Below are positions 6,994 to 22,309 of a stretch of 23,889 nucleotides of DNA, in pieces; position 1 is the stretch's first letter, and every line of letters starts with the position of its first letter. Origin of the DNA: a virus. Location: positions 1 to 23,889 of the IMG/VR virus record IMGVR_UViG_3300006789_000159. One strand, written 5' to 3'. The notes under the pieces are model-generated. The model searched no databases, had not been told where the DNA came from, and saw only the letters and a list, made by a program, of their open reading frames with translations. The position numbers and the translations under genes are program-made.

Positions 6994-7413
6994 TTATGTT
7001 CCTGAGCCTCCGAAGATTACAGCAGAGTTGTCGTTTCCAAATACACCGTACTCAATCAGTGAGTCCGCTTTCGTAGCGTGAACAGCGTATGTCTTGTCTG
7101 GCGCTAAAGGGATAAAAGCAAATTCGCCACCCCCAATTTTAGCAGAGAAAGCCGTGTCGCTTTCGGTTTCGTTACGTAAGTATACGTAGTTCTCCAGCTC
7201 AGGCTCTATATTCTTAATGTATAAGTAAGCCCTGTCATTCTTGTCGTTAGCCAAGTAAACGATCATGTCGTTTGTATCGACAGCCGTACCTTTTACTTTA
7301 GCTCTGATAAGGCTACCAGAATCACAAGTAAGGTTGGCTACAACAGAAAGCGTGAGCGGAGACGTAAGTACATCCGCGCTGTTTAATGATAGTGATGCCC
7401 GTACTGTAGCCAT
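6994..7413 (-). CDS. Virion-like protein, fourth and most diverged member of a tandem paralogous block
   Basis: This 139-residue protein begins MATVRASLSLNSADVLTSPL, the same N-terminal pattern as the three genes upstream (MATTTATxTLNSxDITGxP). Its middle strand (RAYLYIKNIEPELENYVYL) aligns with HKVYIKN in the others, and EFAFIPLAPDKTYAVHA aligns with their GDWxFxPYxGTLDV. The ending LIEYGVFG matches IEYGVFSQ. Overall identity is low, so this is the oldest or fastest-changing copy. Its ATG overlaps the stop of the upstream gene by one base (TAATG), which implies translational coupling. A repeated surface or fibre-type virion subunit is plausible; function is unknown. Confidence 0.8.
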   Translation of the reverse strand: MATVRASLSLNSADVLTSPLTLSVVANLTCDSGSLIRAKVKGTAVDTNDMIVYLANDKNDRAYLYIKNIEPELENYVYLRNETESDTAFSAKIGGGEFAFIPLAPDKTYAVHATKADSLIEYGVFGNDNSAVIFGGSGT

Positions 7414-8159
7414 TATACTGCTTGATAGATTAACATTGATTCTAAAGTCATAGATGTCGCTACGCTAGGCTTTATATAGATGTCTGAAAGAGACTTCGTT
7501 CCCGTAACAGTTGTTGCCACCGCTCCCGTTCCGTCACCTGCCGTCGTAGTAACCGCTTCGGTTGTATCAATCTCTAGGTCAGCCCTTGAGGTTCTCGATG
7601 TAAAGGTTACTACCGCAGTATCTACCGATGTGGTCCAGTTCGGGTAGTAAGCATTATTAATTTGTGACGCTACGTTAGCTACTGTTGAATTAGCTGCGAC
7701 AACGGTTACACCATCGAAAGCAAATGTGTCTCCAGCAGCCCATGTATTGGCAACAGTTACAGTAAATGCCTCTTTAGTTCCCGAAGCTGAGTTCCAAGGA
7801 ATAAAAGCAAAGTCACCTGCATATAATCTCCCTACCTCTGTCAGTCCAGTAATAGACTGGTCAGTAGCATCGTGAGCGCCTGTGGCTCGGTCTCCAGTTA
7901 GATATACAGTAAAGTACTCAGAGCTTACAACAGATAAGTTTTTTAGATAAACCTTATGAGACTTATCGTCTGCGTAATCGTCAGAACGATACAAGACGTA
8001 AGGGGTTACAGATTCCGTTTCTCTTCTCGCTAACCCAGACGTTGATTGCAACCCGATACCTGTACCAGCCTCTGTAAGGTTGGTAGTGGCAGATATGTTG
8101 ATAGGGCTGCTCGTAAGATCAGCGCTTGATATAGTTAGTGATGCTGTAGTAGTTGGCAT
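7413..8159 (-). CDS. Virion-like paralogue carrying an inserted extra domain
   Basis: This 248-residue protein begins MPTTTASLTISSADLTSSPI and follows the family plan up to GDFAFIPW (about residue 122), including SHKVYLKN. At about residues 128-221 it has a segment absent from its paralogues: TVTVANTWAAGDTFAFDG, then a helix (TVANVASQINNAYY) and strands ending TVTGTKSL. The family C-terminal strand then resumes (MTLESMLIYQ). Similar 'TWAAGDTFTFDGVTV' segments recur in phage virion proteins as small accessory domains, by recall. The insertion nearly doubles the length relative to 136-139 residues. Its stop overlaps the next start. It may be the member that carries a specialised surface contact, which is inference. 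Confidence 0.8.
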   Translation of the reverse strand: MPTTTASLTISSADLTSSPINISATTNLTEAGTGIGLQSTSGLARRETESVTPYVLYRSDDYADDKSHKVYLKNLSVVSSEYFTVYLTGDRATGAHDATDQSITGLTEVGRLYAGDFAFIPWNSASGTKEAFTVTVANTWAAGDTFAFDGVTVVAANSTVANVASQINNAYYPNWTTSVDTAVVTFTSRTSRADLEIDTTEAVTTTAGDGTGAVATTVTGTKSLSDIYIKPSVATSMTLESMLIYQAV

Positions 8160-8168
8160 AAGAGGCTA

Positions 8169-8579
8169 TTAGGAGGCTGCTGATTGAGAGAAAACACCAT
8201 ACTCGATAGTAACGCCAGTAGCAATGGTAGTCACCTGAACATCAAGAGTTCCTCCATACGGAATAAACATCCAATCCCCAGGGTAAAGCCTTCCTATAAT
8301 TACATTACCCTCAAGCTCAACAAGGATGTAGTCGCTTGTTCCAGAGCTTGTGTTTCTAATGTAAACCTTATGGGCTACCGTAGTATCAGCATAGATAGAA
8401 TCCGCTACAACAACCGTATCGGTTTGTGCAGCAGCATACGTCCTACTGGTGATCCCTGTAAACTCATCCAAGCCAGTAGATGCCCCAGCCTTTGTTAAGG
8501 TGGCCGTTTGGGTCATGCTAAAAGGATGACCTGTGATGTCCCCGCTATTAAGAGTGAGTGTTGCTGTTGTCGTTGCCAT
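8169..8579 (-). CDS. Virion-like protein, tandem paralogue
   Basis: This 136-residue protein begins MATTTATLTLNSGDITGHPF and ends VTIEYGVFSQSAAS. By hand alignment it shares about 89 of 136 positions (roughly two thirds) with the gene immediately upstream, including HKVYI, GTSD, GRLYPGDW and GTLDV, which points to a fairly recent tandem duplication. It is entirely beta-rich, with no signal peptide, membrane segment or Cys. It lies in the unit that begins at the promoter-like motif 9024-9031 and runs through scaffold and capsid. Function is unknown; its position suggests a virion component made in many copies. Confidence 0.8.
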   Translation of the reverse strand: MATTTATLTLNSGDITGHPFSMTQTATLTKAGASTGLDEFTGITSRTYAAAQTDTVVVADSIYADTTVAHKVYIRNTSSGTSDYILVELEGNVIIGRLYPGDWMFIPYGGTLDVQVTTIATGVTIEYGVFSQSAAS

Positions 8580-8590
8580 GTTCTATAAAA

Positions 8591-9004
8591 TTACGATGCT
8601 ACAGATTGAGAGAAAACGGCGTACTCTACTTTCATTCCAACAGCGCTAGTGTCTATGTCTACGTCTAGAGTTCCGTCATAAGGGAAGAAGCACCAGTCCC
8701 CAGGGTAAAGCCTACCCATAAGCACGTTACTCCCTCCAAGCTCAACGGTAACAAAGTCGCTTGTTCCAGTCGAAGAGTTTTTAATATAAACCTTATGAGA
8801 AGTTGTGGTATCTACATAGGTTCCGTTAGGGACAATATTGGTTGCTGTTTGAGCGGCAGCATACACTACAGTCGTAACCCCTGTAAACTGATCCAGACCA
8901 GTCTCGCTTGCCGCCTTTGTCAAAGTAGCAGTTTTGGTAAGGTTCAGAGGGTCCCCTGTAATGTCAGGGCTGTTAAGTGTTATAGTTGCTGTTGTAGTTG
9001 CCAT
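8591..9004 (-). CDS. Virion-like protein, first copy of the tandem paralogous block
   Basis: This 137-residue protein begins MATTTATITLNSPDITGDPL and ends MKVEYAVFSQSVAS. It is the closest relative of the next gene downstream (8169-8579). The core motif is MGRLYPGDWCFFPYDGTLDV. It is the first gene after the promoter-like motif at 9024-9031, 19 bases before its ATG, and so heads the head-gene unit. There is no export signal. Its position ahead of structural genes and its multiplication suggest a virion surface subunit, but no known family is recognised. Confidence 0.8.
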   Translation of the reverse strand: MATTTATITLNSPDITGDPLNLTKTATLTKAASETGLDQFTGVTTVVYAAAQTATNIVPNGTYVDTTTSHKVYIKNSSTGTSDFVTVELGGSNVLMGRLYPGDWCFFPYDGTLDVDIDTSAVGMKVEYAVFSQSVAS

Positions 9005-9035: not shown

Positions 9036-9236
9036 TTATTTCTTGGTGGGTTTTTTGTGGCTGACAAGCTTAAATTTAGCCTCTTCTATAGCCCCAGCGT
9101 GAGGTGCGTACTCCCCTTTCATAAGGAAGTATCTACCCCGATCCGTCATCCAATGAAACCCATCAGGAGCAGCGACAGCTTTTGTCGCTTGGCTTATATT
9201 CAGCTTACCCCCTTTATTTTTCTTTACTGCGTTCAT
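9036..9236 (-). CDS. Small basic protein, last gene of the envelope cassette
   Basis: This 66-residue, Lys-rich protein contains two similar aromatic stretches, DGFHWMTDRGRYFLM and GEYAPHAGAIEEAKFKLV, and a basic tail (SHKKPTKK). No signal peptide or membrane helix is visible. Its ATG overlaps the TGA of the exported thioredoxin-like gene (TGATG), so translation is probably coupled. The His and aromatic content with basic ends could suit nucleic-acid or envelope binding, but this is speculation. The promoter-like motif of the next unit begins 4 bases after its stop codon, so it closes the cassette. Confidence 0.75.
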   Translation of the reverse strand: MNAVKKNKGGKLNISQATKAVAAPDGFHWMTDRGRYFLMKGEYAPHAGAIEEAKFKLVSHKKPTKK

Positions 9237-9595
9237 CAGAAAGAGCTCATTAGTATTTCATCTACAACGTCCTGAACATCGCTTTGCGTTGCTTCTATAG
9301 CCATCATGATATTCGCCTGGAACCTCTCTTCTTCCTCCCCGTCGTTAAAAACCACGATAGTAGGGACCACAACAATCTTGTGCTCTTTCTGCATATCTGG
9401 CCTCACCATGATGTCAATCCTAGAAACCTCACAGTCGCTTAACGTGTCTATCCAGTCCACGCTGTTCTGAGCGTTAAAGGCTGCATTGAACTCTATTACA
9501 CATATATCGCTTGAGCAAACATCCTTGTTCTCGAAAGAAACAAAAACAACAGTAGAGTATAGAGCAAAAAGACAGAGGGTAATGAGGGTTTTCAT
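9236..9595 (-). CDS. Exported thioredoxin-fold protein lacking the CxxC active site
   Basis: This 119-residue protein has an N-terminal hydrophobic segment (about residues 1-19, MKTLITLCLFALYSTVVFV), read as a signal peptide or anchor. The body follows the thioredoxin plan: first strand VIEF at 33-36, the active-site loop position at 37-44, a second strand (SRIDIMV) and the conserved cis-proline loop VVPTIVVFNDGEE with Pro78, then a C-terminal helix. Where thioredoxins have WCGPC, this protein has F40-N41-A42-Q43-N44, so both catalytic Cys are replaced by Asn. Two other Cys (27 and 32) flank the first strand, with a third at 55. It is probably a non-redox thioredoxin-fold protein in the periplasm. 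Close coupling to its neighbours places it in the envelope cassette. Confidence 0.75.
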   Translation of the reverse strand: MKTLITLCLFALYSTVVFVSFENKDVCSSDICVIEFNAAFNAQNSVDWIDTLSDCEVSRIDIMVRPDMQKEHKIVVVPTIVVFNDGEEEERFQANIMMAIEATQSDVQDVVDEILMSSF

Positions 9596-9602
9596 GGCAG
9601 GG

Positions 9603-9887
9603 TTAATTTAATTTATCGATCTTATCTTCAATTCTTTTCATGTCGTCTTTTATTTCAGAGACATCTTCTTGTGTAGACATAATCGTTTGTCTGATAAGCT
9701 GATCTTTCATGTCGAACTCCATCCTCGTTATCTCTGGGTCTGGTGCGATAGGGAGAGCCTTTGCTTCCGCTATATCAGCCTGAAGGACAAACCACATACT
9801 AATAATAGTAGCCATAGCCGCCCCTATCCCCGCTAAAGTCTTAATGCTTACATTAAAACCTAAGTTTTCATTCAACTCCTTGCCCAT
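9603..9887 (-). CDS. Small inner-membrane protein with periplasmic coiled coil (spanin- or holin-like)
   Basis: This 94-residue protein has one clear membrane segment at about residues 15-37 (KTLAGIGAAMATIISMWFVL) after a short charged N-terminus. A Pro-rich link (ALPIAPDPE) follows, then an amphipathic helix with heptad-like spacing to the end (DVSEIKDDMKRIEDKIDKLN). One N-terminal helix plus an outer coiled coil is the layout of inner-membrane spanins, though some holins and membrane-anchored assembly factors look similar. No lipoprotein partner (o-spanin) and no lysozyme or amidase are seen nearby, so a lysis role is uncertain. It lies 1 base after the outer-membrane barrel gene and 7 bases before the thioredoxin-like gene. 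Confidence 0.78.
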   Translation of the reverse strand: MGKELNENLGFNVSIKTLAGIGAAMATIISMWFVLQADIAEAKALPIAPDPEITRMEFDMKDQLIRQTIMSTQEDVSEIKDDMKRIEDKIDKLN

Positions 9888-9888
9888 A

Positions 9889-10929
9889 TTAGATAATTAC
9901 GTAATTTATACCAAGTGAAAAGTCATGCCATGTCCTGTTCCAATACTTATTGTATTTTCCTTCCAGGAATAACCCTAAACTTTTGTTTACTTTAACCCCA
10001 AAGATAAGCCCTCCTGAGTAGTCCATCCATTGCTCTCCGTTATTGAAGTTGTGATAGGAGAACTCATCCTCTAGGTTTAAATGATAGGGCATTACGTTCC
10101 CCCAACTGTGAAGCCAAAAGGTTTTTTCGTAGTGATAAAAATCAAACCCAGCAACCACAGAGTATTCTATCTTCTGAGGGAGCTCACTGATCTTCCTGTC
10201 TACGTAATCACCTAAGACCTGCGGGATAACCACCTCCTCCCATACCTCTACGCTGTTAGCAACAACCTCCCCTTCAGGGGATAAAAACTCGTTGGTTTCA
10301 AAGTCCACATTGTACCCCTCTTGAAGAGCCAGATAAGTATAGTGAATGTTGTTATTGGCTAACAACCAGTCAGATAGCGGATCATACCCATAGGGCATAG
10401 AGGCCCGCTGAACCGTCCCGACATTAAAAGAAAACTTCTTACCTAAGTTTATACGAGCCCTTTGAGAGGCTTCGAAGTACTCTACGTCAGCGAACCCGTC
10501 TGGCAGGTACTCCACCTTGGCTATAAAGTTCTTACCTACATACCTTAAAAAGTGGTTCTGATTTAAAAACTCCTGCCCTCTTTGACGCATATACGCCCCT
10601 TCGAACAGGAACTCAAACCCCTTCACTTTACCTACTGTAGCGGCATCGCTATATGTTTTCTCTTCGCCGCTATAAAATACGTTAGCCCTGTTCTCATATC
10701 CAAACCGAGCAATCTTGCGTACACCAGCGGTAAAAGAAAAGTCCATTGGTGTTGACACGATGTCAGACTGAAGTTGTCCTGTATAAACAGAGAACGCGCT
10801 CTCATCAGCCACAGAGTTACTGCCCCCTAAAGAGCTGTAAAAAGTAGCGAACTTAAGCGTCTTCTTCAGTAGCTGAGCGTTAGAGCTCAAGCAAAGAAAA
10901 GAGAATAAAATGGCTAACGCAACCCTCAT
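9889..10929 (-). CDS. Outer-membrane beta-barrel-like protein
   Basis: This 346-residue protein has a clear signal peptide (MRVALAILFSFLCLSSNAQ) with the Ala-Gln junction common in Bacteroidota exported proteins. The mature part alternates hydrophobic and polar residues in many short strands rich in Tyr, Phe and Gly (for example KGFEFLFEGAYMRQRG, ARINLGKKFSFNVGT, FGVKVNKSLGLFLEGKYN). It ends in a typical barrel strand (HDFSLGINYVII). I do not see the NPAxAG motif of PorP/SprF proteins. Barrels are rarely encoded among phage structural genes; a receptor-masking (superinfection exclusion) or surface-anchoring role for the T9SS-exported neighbour are possibilities. Its ATG overlaps the stop of the 56-residue gene (ATGA), showing it belongs to the cassette. 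Confidence 0.75.
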   Translation of the reverse strand: MRVALAILFSFLCLSSNAQLLKKTLKFATFYSSLGGSNSVADESAFSVYTGQLQSDIVSTPMDFSFTAGVRKIARFGYENRANVFYSGEEKTYSDAATVGKVKGFEFLFEGAYMRQRGQEFLNQNHFLRYVGKNFIAKVEYLPDGFADVEYFEASQRARINLGKKFSFNVGTVQRASMPYGYDPLSDWLLANNNIHYTYLALQEGYNVDFETNEFLSPEGEVVANSVEVWEEVVIPQVLGDYVDRKISELPQKIEYSVVAGFDFYHYEKTFWLHSWGNVMPYHLNLEDEFSYHNFNNGEQWMDYSGGLIFGVKVNKSLGLFLEGKYNKYWNRTWHDFSLGINYVII

Positions 10930-11096
10930 ACCTCGAACCCGAAATTGAGGATCATAAATCTAACTCTCTTGCACTTCTCGTCTTTAGAACAAAAAAGGCA
11001 TAGACGAAGTTCGAGGACGGTTAACCGACCCAACCTAAGAGACACTTCATATTTTGCCTTCTTGTTTCCTTTTCCCCAGCTGTTAATCCAATTCAT
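10926..11096 (-). CDS. 56-residue protein coupled between the T9SS protein and the barrel
   Basis: The 163-base gap between two larger genes is filled by an open frame from ATG at 11096 to TGA at 10926. The ATG overlaps the upstream TGA (ATGA) and its own TGA overlaps the downstream ATG (ATGA), so both junctions are four-base coupling overlaps. This double fit is strong evidence that it is translated. The product is basic, starts MNWINSWGKGNKKAKYEVSL, has two Cys-containing stretches (LCLFCSKDEKC) and ends RVRFMILNFGFEV. No signal peptide or clear membrane helix is visible. I do not recognise the family. Confidence 0.75.
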   Translation of the reverse strand: MNWINSWGKGNKKAKYEVSLRLGRLTVLELRLCLFCSKDEKCKRVRFMILNFGFEV

Positions 11097-13120
11097 AATT
11101 TCATAATTTTTTTGTTAATAGATATACCGTTGTACTCAACGATAACTTGATAGAGCCCTTTAGAGAGCCCTGAGAGGTCTAAAACCTTTTCTGTGGTACT
11201 AGACACTACTCGTTGACCAAAGTTGTTGTATACGGCTGTAATGACCTTATACGGACATCTTATGGTTAATGTGTTTTCTACGGGGTTGGGGTAGATCTGT
11301 ACCCTACCCATGTAATAAGGGATGTCAGCGGGCATGCCTTCTTGGCAGTAGCTGTATATCTCGCCGCAAATATCGTCCCATTCGGATCCGCAGCAGTTAG
11401 GGTCCACCTCGATAACCCACGAGTAACAGACATCATTAGCCCAGTAAGGGTCTCCAGGCTCGCCTACGCACCCCGCGTCATATAGGCATAGGCTGTTGTC
11501 CGCCGTGTTGGCCTCCTCGTCATAGTTAAAAGCGTTAACGTCAACGCACCCTACTAGCACCTCGATGCAAGAGTCAATATCTACATTGGCTTCAGCGTCG
11601 TAGTTAAGAGCATCGGGGTCCGTACAGCCGAACATAGCCACCGTCTCGCAGCTACCGTCATCAAAATCAGCGACATAGCCCTGCTCGTAGTACTCTAAAT
11701 ACCCCGCCTGCATGCACCCTGCATTATAATAACAGCTTCCGTCTTCTGAGTTTACGGCAGGATCATAGTTCTGTGCGTCAGTATCCATACACCCATAAAC
11801 GTACGGCTCACAGAAGTTATCGCAAGTAGGTGTAGCCACATACCTATAAGGAAACTTCAACAAAGCATCTGTCCAAGGGTTTGTACCCCCGTCTAAAAGC
11901 ACTCCTTGAGGTCCAGATAGAGAAAACCCACACTGACCAGCCGTAGACTCTGCGTTACCTCCAGTAAAGAAGTACACGCTTACCTCTTCATTGCTATTCA
12001 GTTGGAGAGGTATGTCTATTTGGTTCCCATCAATAGGCTGCATCTCATACGGACCATACAAGCTATCCCCTTGTGCCACACCTAACCAGCTTCCAAACCA
12101 TCCATCCCAACCCCCGTCGATAAGGGTTAGTGTATAATCACAAGAATCCTCCAGCGCCATCGTGTTGCAGTTCTCGTCGTAGTTAAAAGCCTCGGTATCT
12201 GTACAGCCTAAAACAACAGGGGTGAGGCAACTACCATCATCTTCAATAGCAAAAGAATTATACTCTAAATAACCCTCGTCAGTACACCCAGTAGAAACAG
12301 GTGGGTCACAGTGTGGGACAACAAAAGCGGGGGAGGAAAGCGTATCGTACTGCGTTTCCCCTCCAACGTAGAAAAAGCCGTGATCGCATAAAGACAAAAC
12401 AACAAAAAAACCGTCAACACCTCCCCAACACGAGCCACACATACCGTCCCCGTAAGTGTCATATATAGTAGCTACAAGGCTATCCCCTTCAGTAGCGCAC
12501 ACGCTAGACATATTAGTATACTGAGCCCCCGTGTAATTCCCACCCCAATTTAAAACCTCCTCTGTCCCGTATACGGATATATCCCAACTAATCTCCTCGA
12601 AGTACGTATCAGCGGCAAGGAGGGCAATTATGTTTGTCTGTCCCTCTGGGCAAGCGACAGGCGGCGTATCACATACATCGGGATACATCGCCCAAGGGTT
12701 GTAATTCAAAGCCAATTCATCCATGCACCCGTATATAGGTATCTCACACGGGTCAACTACAAAGGGAATGGTAAGTAGGGGCGAATCGAAATCACCTACG
12801 TATTCATCCAGCCCACACGTATTGGTTAGACTAAACCACCCTTCCCCGAAATTGCAGCATATTCCATCCCCATACGAGTCGTACATAGCAAAAAGATAAC
12901 TGCCCACACTTAAGGTGACTACAGTCTCTGTTAAAGAATTGCTAGTAAACGGGTCTGAAGTCTCTATAATTTCTCCGCTGATAGAAGAGAAAATCTTCCA
13001 GCTTGTCTCGCCTGCGTACTGATCGGTTTGCACCGAGACGTTCACCCACCCGCTCTGTCCAAGAACGAGACATGGGATAAAAGAAAAAAGGAGCAGCAGG
13101 CATGACTTTGTTATTCCCAT
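11093..13120 (-). CDS. Secreted Cys-rich repeat protein with T9SS type A C-terminal sorting domain
   Basis: This 675-residue protein has a signal peptide at residues 1-21 (LLLLFSFIPCLVLG, then Q22). Two copies of an ETSWKI...YDSYGDGICC-type beta domain occupy about residues 24-125 and 163-270; a related domain at about 326-437 starts TLTLIDGGWDGW. At least seven repeats of the form GCxDxxAxNYDxxAxxxDGSC lie around 131, 278, 305, 443, 468, 498 and 524. A Cys-rich segment (DPNCCGSEWDDIC) precedes the end. Residues 605-675 are a T9SS type A sorting domain: VQIYPNPVENTLTI, then YNNFGQRVV, LDLSGLSKGLYQVIVE and KKIMKL. Such domains direct cargo through the Bacteroidota outer membrane, after which they are cut off and the protein released or attached to the surface. 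It heads the envelope cassette, with a promoter-like motif 4 bases before the ATG. It may have been acquired from a host. Confidence 0.9.
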   Translation of the reverse strand: MGITKSCLLLLFSFIPCLVLGQSGWVNVSVQTDQYAGETSWKIFSSISGEIIETSDPFTSNSLTETVVTLSVGSYLFAMYDSYGDGICCNFGEGWFSLTNTCGLDEYVGDFDSPLLTIPFVVDPCEIPIYGCMDELALNYNPWAMYPDVCDTPPVACPEGQTNIIALLAADTYFEEISWDISVYGTEEVLNWGGNYTGAQYTNMSSVCATEGDSLVATIYDTYGDGMCGSCWGGVDGFFVVLSLCDHGFFYVGGETQYDTLSSPAFVVPHCDPPVSTGCTDEGYLEYNSFAIEDDGSCLTPVVLGCTDTEAFNYDENCNTMALEDSCDYTLTLIDGGWDGWFGSWLGVAQGDSLYGPYEMQPIDGNQIDIPLQLNSNEEVSVYFFTGGNAESTAGQCGFSLSGPQGVLLDGGTNPWTDALLKFPYRYVATPTCDNFCEPYVYGCMDTDAQNYDPAVNSEDGSCYYNAGCMQAGYLEYYEQGYVADFDDGSCETVAMFGCTDPDALNYDAEANVDIDSCIEVLVGCVDVNAFNYDEEANTADNSLCLYDAGCVGEPGDPYWANDVCYSWVIEVDPNCCGSEWDDICGEIYSYCQEGMPADIPYYMGRVQIYPNPVENTLTIRCPYKVITAVYNNFGQRVVSSTTEKVLDLSGLSKGLYQVIVEYNGISINKKIMKL

Positions 13121-13426: not shown

Positions 13427-14794
13427 TTATGAATTAAAAGCAGCATATACGCCAGATATTGCTGTAGTGCCAAGCCAAGGGGCTATAGCATTACATGTCT
13501 GTCCAGAGTTTTGTACTATACCCTGCCGATTGTATACATCGGTGCTTCCTGTAATAAAAGATGCCGCTGTATTGACGGTGGTTCCATAGTTTTGGACTCC
13601 AAAAACGTATAGCTTATTGTTGTTTATCGCGGCCCATACATAATCTGATTGGCTAGTCGCATGCCTAGCGCATTTAATAGCAGTAAACTGATCGCTACCT
13701 CCAAAAGAACCGAGAGTTCCCGCCGACGCAGTACCGCTAGTTTTTACATGGTAGCCAGACTTAGCATCAACAGTTGTGCCGCTCCCTGTACCCCAAGTAG
13801 CCTCCCCCGCAAACCACACCTCGCCGCTAGTGTTTATTAACATAGTTTTGTCATCCGAGCAAGACCCGCTCACCCAGCTCGTCCCAAACGTTCCGCTACC
13901 ATCTATCTTCCCTGACTGAGTAAAAGAAGTTACATCAGAGGTTGAGTTATTTCCAAACCGCTCGTCGCCGCCATCGCCCGTTACATACAGCTTCCCCGCT
14001 AAAATAGCTATAGTGTGGTTATACCCCGCTTCAACAAAAGTCCAGTCTTCACCAGCGTCAGCCGCCACCCTTTCTGTCCACGAGGTATCGTCGCCAGACG
14101 TATCCCCCGAACCGCACTTACCGTCCCTATTTTCTCCTGTCGTTAGCAGCGATCTATCCCCCGAAGCGCCTTTAATAGCGGCGCTGTGGTTATCCCCCGC
14201 AGAAACAGCAAACCAATCGGTATCGCTCCCTATCTGCGTTAGCGTTGTTACATCGGTGGTATTCCCCGTTCCTAGCTGACCGTCACCGTTCTCTCCAACG
14301 ACAAAGAGCTTGCCCGCGTTAATAGCTAAAATAAAGTCACTACCACAGGATACATCCGTCCACGCTGTGTCATCACTAACCCCTGTGACAGAAGTTGCTT
14401 GCGTTAACGTGGCGGCACTCGATGATTGGTGCACATAGTTTGTGCTATAACTGTACATCCACAGCTTCCCATCGGTATCGATACCCGCGAATACGTATTT
14501 ACTAGCATCTAGCTTGCTCCAGTTTTTTGCGCTTACTTGATCTATAGCGAACTGCCCGTCTTTATCGCTAGAATAATTTACAACCACCTCCGCATGCCAA
14601 CTATATAATCCAGATAAAGGTTCACCTGCGTTCTTAGCGGTACCATAATGAATTAATCCCGTTGTAGGTACCGTTTCTGTGTATGTCCCTGAGTCGGCTA
14701 CAGGATTATATGCTCCTCCAGCAGCGATATCCTGTCCGTTTATTGATGCTATGTTTCCCACGTCTATTCCGTTATATGATGATATGTCTGGCAT
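13427..14794 (-). CDS. Tail/fibre protein with RCC1-like beta-propeller
   Basis: The first ~28 residues of this 455-residue protein (SSYNGIDVGNIASINGQDIA) have the short repeated N-terminal docking look seen in some marine phage fibre proteins. A region up to about residue 90 follows. From about residue 92 to 445 there are six to seven repeats of RCC1 type: WTDVSCGSDFILAINAGKLFVVGENGDGQLG, split here as WTDVSCGSDFILAI and KLFVVGENGDGQLGTG, then WFAVSAGDNHSAAIKG with LLTTGENRDGKCGSG, then WTFVEAGYNHTIAIL with KLYVTGDGGDERFG, then weaker ones. The Gly-rich turn and the His/Asp-containing loop recur. RCC1 propellers bind proteins and other ligands; here a host-contact tip is the natural guess. 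The start overlaps the collagen-like gene's stop (TAATG), so the two are coupled. Confidence 0.82.
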   Translation of the reverse strand: MPDISSYNGIDVGNIASINGQDIAAGGAYNPVADSGTYTETVPTTGLIHYGTAKNAGEPLSGLYSWHAEVVVNYSSDKDGQFAIDQVSAKNWSKLDASKYVFAGIDTDGKLWMYSYSTNYVHQSSSAATLTQATSVTGVSDDTAWTDVSCGSDFILAINAGKLFVVGENGDGQLGTGNTTDVTTLTQIGSDTDWFAVSAGDNHSAAIKGASGDRSLLTTGENRDGKCGSGDTSGDDTSWTERVAADAGEDWTFVEAGYNHTIAILAGKLYVTGDGGDERFGNNSTSDVTSFTQSGKIDGSGTFGTSWVSGSCSDDKTMLINTSGEVWFAGEATWGTGSGTTVDAKSGYHVKTSGTASAGTLGSFGGSDQFTAIKCARHATSQSDYVWAAINNNKLYVFGVQNYGTTVNTAASFITGSTDVYNRQGIVQNSGQTCNAIAPWLGTTAISGVYAAFNS

Positions 14795-21871: not shown

Positions 21872-21888
21872 GTTGTTTAGTTTAATTG

Positions 21889-21962
21889 TACACCCGCAGG
21901 GATTCGAACCCCGAACCTTCGCATTAGAAGTGCGATGCTCTATCCTGTTGAGCTACGAGTGC
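21889..21962 (-). tRNA. tRNA-Arg (anticodon UCU)
   Basis: A full cloverleaf can be drawn: acceptor GCACTCG pairing with CGGGTGT, D-stem GCTC/GAGC with GG in the loop, anticodon stem TCGCA/TGCGA around CTTCTAA (anticodon TCT), variable loop AGGTT, and T-stem CGGGG/CCCTG with TTCGAAT. The discriminator base is A. CCA is not encoded, since CAA follows. It reads AGA and AGG arginine codons, both used in this phage. Its 5' end overlaps the last codons of the HNH gene by 10 bases. Confidence 0.95.
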
Positions 21963-22309
21963 TTGTTTATGGTTCTTCTTTGGTGGGTTATCCTACGGTG
22001 GCAATTTGAACACCTTACCTCGCACTTTCTTATTTCTTTCTTTATAGCCTCTATAGAGTAGCCCTGTCTAGACATATCAGATACGTTCCCTGCCTTTTCG
22101 CCCTCTACATGATCAAAATCAAGGACCACTACATCTGACTCGCCGCAGTCCACGCAATTAAACCTCCTCTTAACCCTAGATACAAAGTTAGAGTTTCTTT
22201 CCCTTTGAAGTCTATTCCTTTTTTTGCTTCTTTCTTTTACCTTTTCTTTGTTTTCAGAATAGTGTTTAGCGCTGGCTCTAGCTTGGTCTTCTTTGTTCTT
22301 GTAGCTCAT
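21953..22309 (-). CDS. HNH-type homing endonuclease
   Basis: This 118-residue protein has a strongly basic helical N-terminus (about residues 1-50, KEKVKERSKKRNRLQRERN). A zinc-stabilised HNH motif follows: CVDCG at 52-55, LDFDHV with D66-H67, KCEVRCSNCHRR with C100, C103 and H104. It cuts DNA with loose specificity; family members in phages are often free-standing mobile genes. Its last four codons and stop lie inside the acceptor stem of tRNA-Arg (10-base overlap). The position next to a tRNA, with packaging genes on both sides, could mean that gene and tRNA arrived together. No frameshift is seen, so it looks intact. Confidence 0.88.
   Translation of the reverse strand: MSYKNKEDQARASAKHYSENKEKVKERSKKRNRLQRERNSNFVSRVKRRFNCVDCGESDVVVLDFDHVEGEKAGNVSDMSRQGYSIEAIKKEIRKCEVRCSNCHRRITHQRRTINKHS

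Follow-up and report, generated by a model that had tools for sequence, protein, structure and literature searches.

The window, the whole stretch of 23,889 bases analyzed here, is a complete IMG/VR virus record. Its long minus-strand genes are phage genes, including those for terminase (phrog_6681, E 3e-204), portal (phrog_6547, E 3e-202), a capsid-region protein (phrog_13704, E 7e-106), and a collagen-type tail fiber. Between the tail-fiber and the decoration/capsid genes lies a gene for a 675-residue protein, which the initial annotation had placed at 11093-13120. These coordinates are correct, but the gene turns out to be on the minus strand; the plus strand there is rich in stop codons. 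This gene and three neighbors, b346, tm94, and trx119, are referred to below as the cassette, and their features are as follows.

11093..13120, minus strand: type IX secretion system (T9SS) type A cargo, 675 aa (Pfam and NCBIfam matches above cut-off, AlphaFold2 model, superposition on 8glk_D)
11093..11296, minus strand: sorting domain of the cargo, residues 609-675, stop codon included (PF18962 and TIGR04183)
13058..13120, minus strand: leader peptide of the cargo, codons 1-21, predicted cleavage before Q22 (judged from the sequence itself; Q22 all but constant across 45 relatives; Bacteroidetes Q-rule)
9889..10929, minus strand: b346, 346 aa, exported, predicted to form a beta-barrel of 12 strands in the outer membrane (AlphaFold2 model, fold matches, conserved Q19)
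9603..9887, minus strand: tm94, 94 aa, a single hydrophobic helix plus a charged tail of coiled-coil type (sequence, alignment, position kept in relatives)
9236..9595, minus strand: trx119, 119 aa, exported, with a thioredoxin fold that lacks a CxxC active site (weak Pfam match, alignment)

Other features of the window include a gene at 13427-14794 (minus strand), between the tail fiber and the cargo, for a 455-aa RCC1-type beta-propeller repeat protein (PF00415, 48.8 bits; phrog_4219), a repeat type resembling those of eukaryotes, here within the tail region of a phage. Four small paralogous genes at 6994-9004 (minus strand), about 31 to 65% identical where compared, lie between the cassette and the capsid genes and probably encode decoration proteins, with a copy number that varies between phages. 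A tRNA-Arg(TCT) gene (21888-21962, minus strand) shares 10 bases with the 3' end of a gene at 21953-22309 (minus strand), whose 118-aa product has an HNH-like CxxC..CxxC pattern.

The initial annotation had proposed, from sequence motifs, that the cargo carries a signal peptide at residues 1-21 and a C-terminal type A sorting domain, and both proposals held. PF18962 (Por_Secre_tail) matches residues 609-672 (E 1.6e-9; 38.4 bits, with the gathering score at 27), and TIGR04183 of NCBIfam matches residues 609-674 (30.4 bits against a cut-off of 23). The domain sits at the very C terminus, ending at residue 674 of 675, and a six-frame search of the record gave a single sorting-domain match, located within this gene. 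A sorting domain is present in 42 of 45 divergent cargo relatives, more than expected by chance. The N terminus, MGITKSCLLLLFSFIPCLVLG followed by QSGW, reads by eye as a Sec leader that ends between G21 and Q22, and Q22 is near-invariant in the relatives.

In the AlphaFold2 model of the cargo (m7a07b67df442, pLDDT 82.6), the leader (residues 1-21) is followed by three beta-sandwich domains (approximately 23-122, 161-265, and 326-430), Cys-rich GCxDxxAxNY repeats, a short helical CC..WD..C domain, and the sorting domain (608-674). The protein contains 37 Cys residues and six GC[MTV]D repeats. Its C-terminal domain (CTD) is modeled as seven strands at 608-674 with an Ig-like fold, and the model superposes on 8glk_D, the NucA sorting domain in a solved T9SS complex (TM 0.78, 2.2 A), and on 8glj_D, the FspA sorting domain (TM 0.73). 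In sequence comparison, a profile built on the 45 relatives likewise picks up CTD chains of gingipain and endonuclease. Outside the CTD, a fold search returned only generic beta-sandwich matches, and Pfam recognized no domain besides the sorting domain in the window cargo, neither an enzymatic nor a PA14 passenger. Our results thus confirm, at the level of sequence, that the gene encodes a phage-borne T9SS type A cargo, whose export is predicted from its tag and leader.

The AlphaFold2 model of b346 (m9bfb173e88c7; pLDDT 74.8, pTM 0.69, moderate confidence) consists of a leader and 12 long strands. The best fold match in the PDB is the NanC porin (E 3.5e-5), and outer-membrane barrels, NanC/KdgM porins included, make up most of the top list. 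With its leader and long up-and-down strands, b346 is predicted to be an outer-membrane beta-barrel, and Q19 is conserved among its relatives. Lipobox-like LLASC, LVASC, and LTAC motifs are found in the b346 leaders of large phages (L250, L254, and L536), which is odd for a barrel protein. The b346 protein of the window matches no family in Pfam or NCBIfam, PorV and PorP/SprF families included, and T9SS barrels are absent among its 50 best fold matches. An identification as PorV or SprF is therefore unsupported, and as the protein has no PorV or PorP/SprF sequence match, a direct role as a T9SS partner is conjecture. For trx119, which also begins with a leader, Pfam gives a thioredoxin match that is weak and falls below the cut-off (E 8e-4). 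This protein is unlikely to serve the Cys-rich cargo as an enzyme of disulfide formation, as it has no CxxC and the divergent members seen keep only an LSDC-type Cys. Likewise, tm94 is unlikely to be the sole holin, since a phrog_3427 holin coexists with it in many loci. Beyond the sorting domain and the weak thioredoxin match, nothing informative was found for the four proteins of the window in Pfam, NCBIfam, or PHROGs.

The four genes are linked well beyond the window. In four terminase-related lineages (window/L002, G049, G007/G011, and G023), the cargo gene precedes the 346-aa, 94-aa, and 119-aa genes in an unchanged order, and in two of these a second cargo gene is interposed. Scans of IMG/VR identified 206 relatives of the cargo and 166 of b346 (591 or more when the b346 profile was broadened). 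Among the distinct cassettes from the cargo and barrel scans, all four genes are present in 106 of 121; a contig end interrupts 14, and in the remaining one (L261) b346 lies at the contig end without tm94 and trx119. The cargo is beside b346 in each of 22 further distinct b346 loci, 19 of which contain all four genes. When the search is anchored on trx119 the full block is found in 66 of 78 loci, and on tm94 in 67 of 79. The order is mostly cargo-b346-tm94-trx119, with b346-tm94-trx119-cargo in nine loci, and 51 loci show a 4-nt overlap between the cargo stop and the b346 start. Relatives that have terminases about 80% identical and a complete tail-to-capsid region lack the four cassette genes together, as one block, and in seven large records b346 was not found anywhere.

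The linkage has limits. At least four loci that bear the trio of b346, tm94, and trx119 together with flanking sequence have no cargo beside b346: L467, L479, and L491 harbor a distant b346 subfamily with tm94 and trx119 and no adjacent cargo, and L536 is also without an upstream cargo. No sorting domain was found in the 65.7-kb record of L467. These loci rule out strict universality of the four-gene cassette and indicate that the cargo is not a strict requirement for the trio, which forms the core and has the cargo as a nearly constant companion. Loci were taken from the best 80 relatives per scan, and more distant exceptions to the linkage are likely. The Cys-rich cargo repeats recur in ORFs of 1357-2987 aa from records G506, G509, G510, and G511 (loci L467, L536, L543, and L554); the phages with these ORFs have b346 and tm94 and no sorting domain. 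A second T9SS cargo adjoins the cassette at L097:16092-17657, L100:12343-13578, and L117:13788-15563. The second cargos found nearby are CARDB-like type A proteins and one type B protein (CHU_C, E 2e-15), and relatives of the latter are present in 23 loci, 12 of them between cassette genes.

The modules of the cargo resemble secreted proteins of marine Flavobacteriales, which could point to host DNA or an assembly chimera as the source of the gene. Against this, a 62-kb contig from a second metagenome carries an identical cargo gene, with neighbors that match at 99.5-100% protein identity, and more than 100 contigs keep the identical gene order. Matches of the cargo in bacterial genomes, mostly from marine Flavobacteriales and other Bacteroidetes, are partial and at the level of modules (25-48%). 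A search of 395 genomes that share the class of a marine Flavobacteriales genome did not find b346, while the control detected five of five carrier records. With relatives of the cargo in more than 200 IMG/VR contigs, the initial annotation was right to treat this as a phage gene; a chimera or host contamination is ruled out by the independent contigs and has a vanishingly small probability.

The terminase of the window shares 40-46% identity with terminases from Flavobacterium elemo phages and from an uncultured spring phage, and further matches come from Cellulophaga, Tenacibaculum, and Maribacter phages. In Bacteroidetes, the Q-rule describes a Q that follows signal-peptide cleavage (PMC5837995, PMC10367356, PMC10653852). 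Cargo leaders fit this rule in 42 of 45 cases by a crude pattern, with another recognized by eye (shuffled control, 24%); b346 leaders do so in 46 of 57 cases by pattern and in the other 11 by eye (control, 11%). The Q-rule leaders, the T9SS tag, and the terminase relatives together make a Bacteroidetes host very likely, and we describe the phage, on this indirect assignment, as a putative marine virus of Bacteroidetes. Among the isolate phages of INPHARED, neither the cargo nor b346 nor trx119 was found, and a consensus CTD query for isolate phages returned only two uncultured records with weak E-values.

The cassette genes are under strong purifying selection, with median dN/dS values, from pairs that are not independent, of 0.071 for the cargo (117 pairs), 0.045 for b346, 0.097 for trx119, and 0.069 for tm94. 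Between the window and L117 or L163, cassette identity is 59-60% for b346, 59% for trx119, 60-81% for tm94, and 46-49% for the cargo, whereas the terminases are 20-21% identical, against 21% in the shuffled control. As cassette identity stays at these levels where the terminases align no better than shuffled sequences, the cassette most likely moves between phage lineages. A distant phrog_6681 terminase is present in 40 of 50 carrier records picked outside the terminase clade of the window. Three carrier contigs of 116-158 kb have no phrog_6681 terminase, and one of these has ribonucleotide reductase and DnaB-type helicase genes near the cassette. In a 116-kb phage contig, the cassette has a gene for a GroEL-type chaperonin (PF00118) in its vicinity, at L252:1625-3262.

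We consider it likely that the gene product is a phage-borne cargo of the host T9SS and part of an envelope cassette of four genes in marine Bacteroidetes phages. The computation supports the phage context, sorting domain, leader, conserved linkage, predicted barrel fold, and purifying selection; export, display, and timing are our inference. Sec and signal peptidase I would release the cargo into the periplasm, and the host T9SS would carry it over the outer membrane via its C-terminal domain. The b346 barrel would insert in the outer membrane beside the cargo, and tm94 and trx119 would provide links from the inner membrane and the periplasm. Expression of the cassette is probably late, because the cargo gene sits among virion genes, and the complex may then remodel the dying cell's surface together with its outer membrane. 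As for its role, we tentatively favor the prevention of wasteful adsorption, through superinfection exclusion or by keeping progeny off debris; this falls a little short of an even chance and is favored because the product should end up outside the cell. A role in opening of the outer membrane or exit of virions is rather unlikely, yet it has to be taken seriously as an alternative, since 54 of 139 loci have a holin or endolysin gene within 3 kb. Other surface or extracellular functions are unlikely as well. The initial annotation had also considered coating of released virions, a possible role that nothing here favors. Its central reading, a phage-encoded T9SS cargo that is not a usual tail protein, is supported; it missed the linkage of four envelope genes and, in many phages, the lysis genes beside the cargo.

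That tm94, trx119, the barrel, and the exported cargo jointly act at the outer membrane in lysis, replacing spanins that go unrecognized, would fit the frequent company of lysis genes. A relative of the phrog_3427 holin is present in 48 of the 139 loci (within 300 b of the cassette in 29, between cassette genes in 20), an amidase endolysin in six (five within 300 b), and an M15 endolysin in seven. By its sequence, an inner-membrane helix with a coiled coil, tm94 is i-spanin-like, and its topology fits a spanin by eye; some b346 proteins of large phages have lipobox-like leaders. However, b346 of the window is a predicted barrel and not a small lipoprotein, no fusion or spanin signature was found, no lysis gene is recognized next to the cassette in the window's own lineage, and T9SS export of a large Cys-rich multidomain protein would be a costly way to open a membrane. 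We regard such a release module as unlikely.

The location of the cargo gene between tail-fiber and decoration/capsid genes, and the recurrence of its Cys repeats in the 1357-2987-aa ORFs of some related phages, raise the possibility that it encodes a tail fiber or decoration protein merely resembling secreted proteins. This is improbable given the Q-rule leader and C-terminal sorting domain in 42 of 45 relatives, the leaders on b346 and trx119, and the close relatives that have tail genes without the whole block. A passive moron, in which a surface protein and a porin aid substrate uptake with no role in adsorption or release, would accord with the porin-like fold of b346, with the glycogen-binding (CBM-like) domain match in 2 of the 45 cargo relatives, and with the glycoside hydrolases among Cryophage T9SS cargos (PMC7468147). 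The lack of a catalytic domain, the late-gene position, and the strong conservation of four genes, two of which look neither porin-like nor enzyme-like, argue against nutrient capture, which we regard as doubtful.

Our preferred reading stays with a cargo of the host T9SS that acts within an envelope cassette. The joint occurrence of the cargo gene with its three envelope partners in hundreds of uncultivated phages suggests that such phages routinely rework the host surface. More speculatively, a mobile and widespread envelope cassette may let marine Bacteroidetes phages build a T9SS-dependent surface complex that controls adsorption or release. This complex would comprise the exported Cys-rich protein, an outer-membrane barrel, a periplasmic thioredoxin-fold protein, and an inner-membrane coiled coil. 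To our knowledge, such a complex would have no T9SS-dependent precedent among phage-encoded trans-envelope apparatuses. T9SS is a main route of surface building in Bacteroidetes and is linked to gliding and phage sensitivity. If the cassette does depend on T9SS, its maintenance by strong purifying selection across several hundred viral contigs from uncultivated phages would make it a general strategy and not a curiosity, and the cassette offers a testable handle on outer-membrane management by these phages.

The cargo of the window shares the leader and the C-terminal seven-strand sandwich of Bacteroidetes type A cargos such as NucA and gingipains, as seen in the matches to 8glk_D and 8glj_D, but it is phage encoded and has no recognized enzymatic domain. 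The arrangement resembles SprB-SprF in outline, in that the gene for an exported surface protein adjoins a gene for an outer-membrane barrel. SprF-type partners, however, serve type B cargo, and b346 matches no Pfam or NCBIfam barrel family. The Omp protein of Aeromonas phage phiAS5 and Omp-like proteins of cyanophages, weak fold matches of b346 by Foldseek, are likewise phage-encoded predicted outer-membrane barrels; we know of no association of these with T9SS cargo.

The initial annotation had assumed that use of T9SS by phages was undescribed, which is contradicted by reports from 2020 (PMC7468147) and 2019 (PMC6949934). Cryophage harbors three T9SS-tagged cargo genes, for which competition or superinfection exclusion was suggested (Bellas et al. 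2020, PMC7468147), and it resembles the present case in the type A sorting domain on proteins of a Bacteroidetes phage and in the function proposed. Its cargos are an endoglucanase, a GH39 protein, and a PA14 protein in variable islands, whereas the window cargo, compared with Cryophage (MT820023) by description only, is conserved, has no recognized enzyme domain, and belongs to a fixed four-gene cassette. P. gingivalis phages have been reported to encode Q-rule exported proteins (PMC10367356). In the 2019 report, crAss-like BACON phages are described with T9SS sorting domains on proteins encoded near head genes, as here; these are gut phages with BACON repeats, and the passages on them mention no linked outer-membrane barrel (PMC6949934). 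A search limited to the open-access literature found no description of this cassette. Phage T9SS cargo is therefore already known, and what is new here is its widespread, conserved four-gene envelope context.
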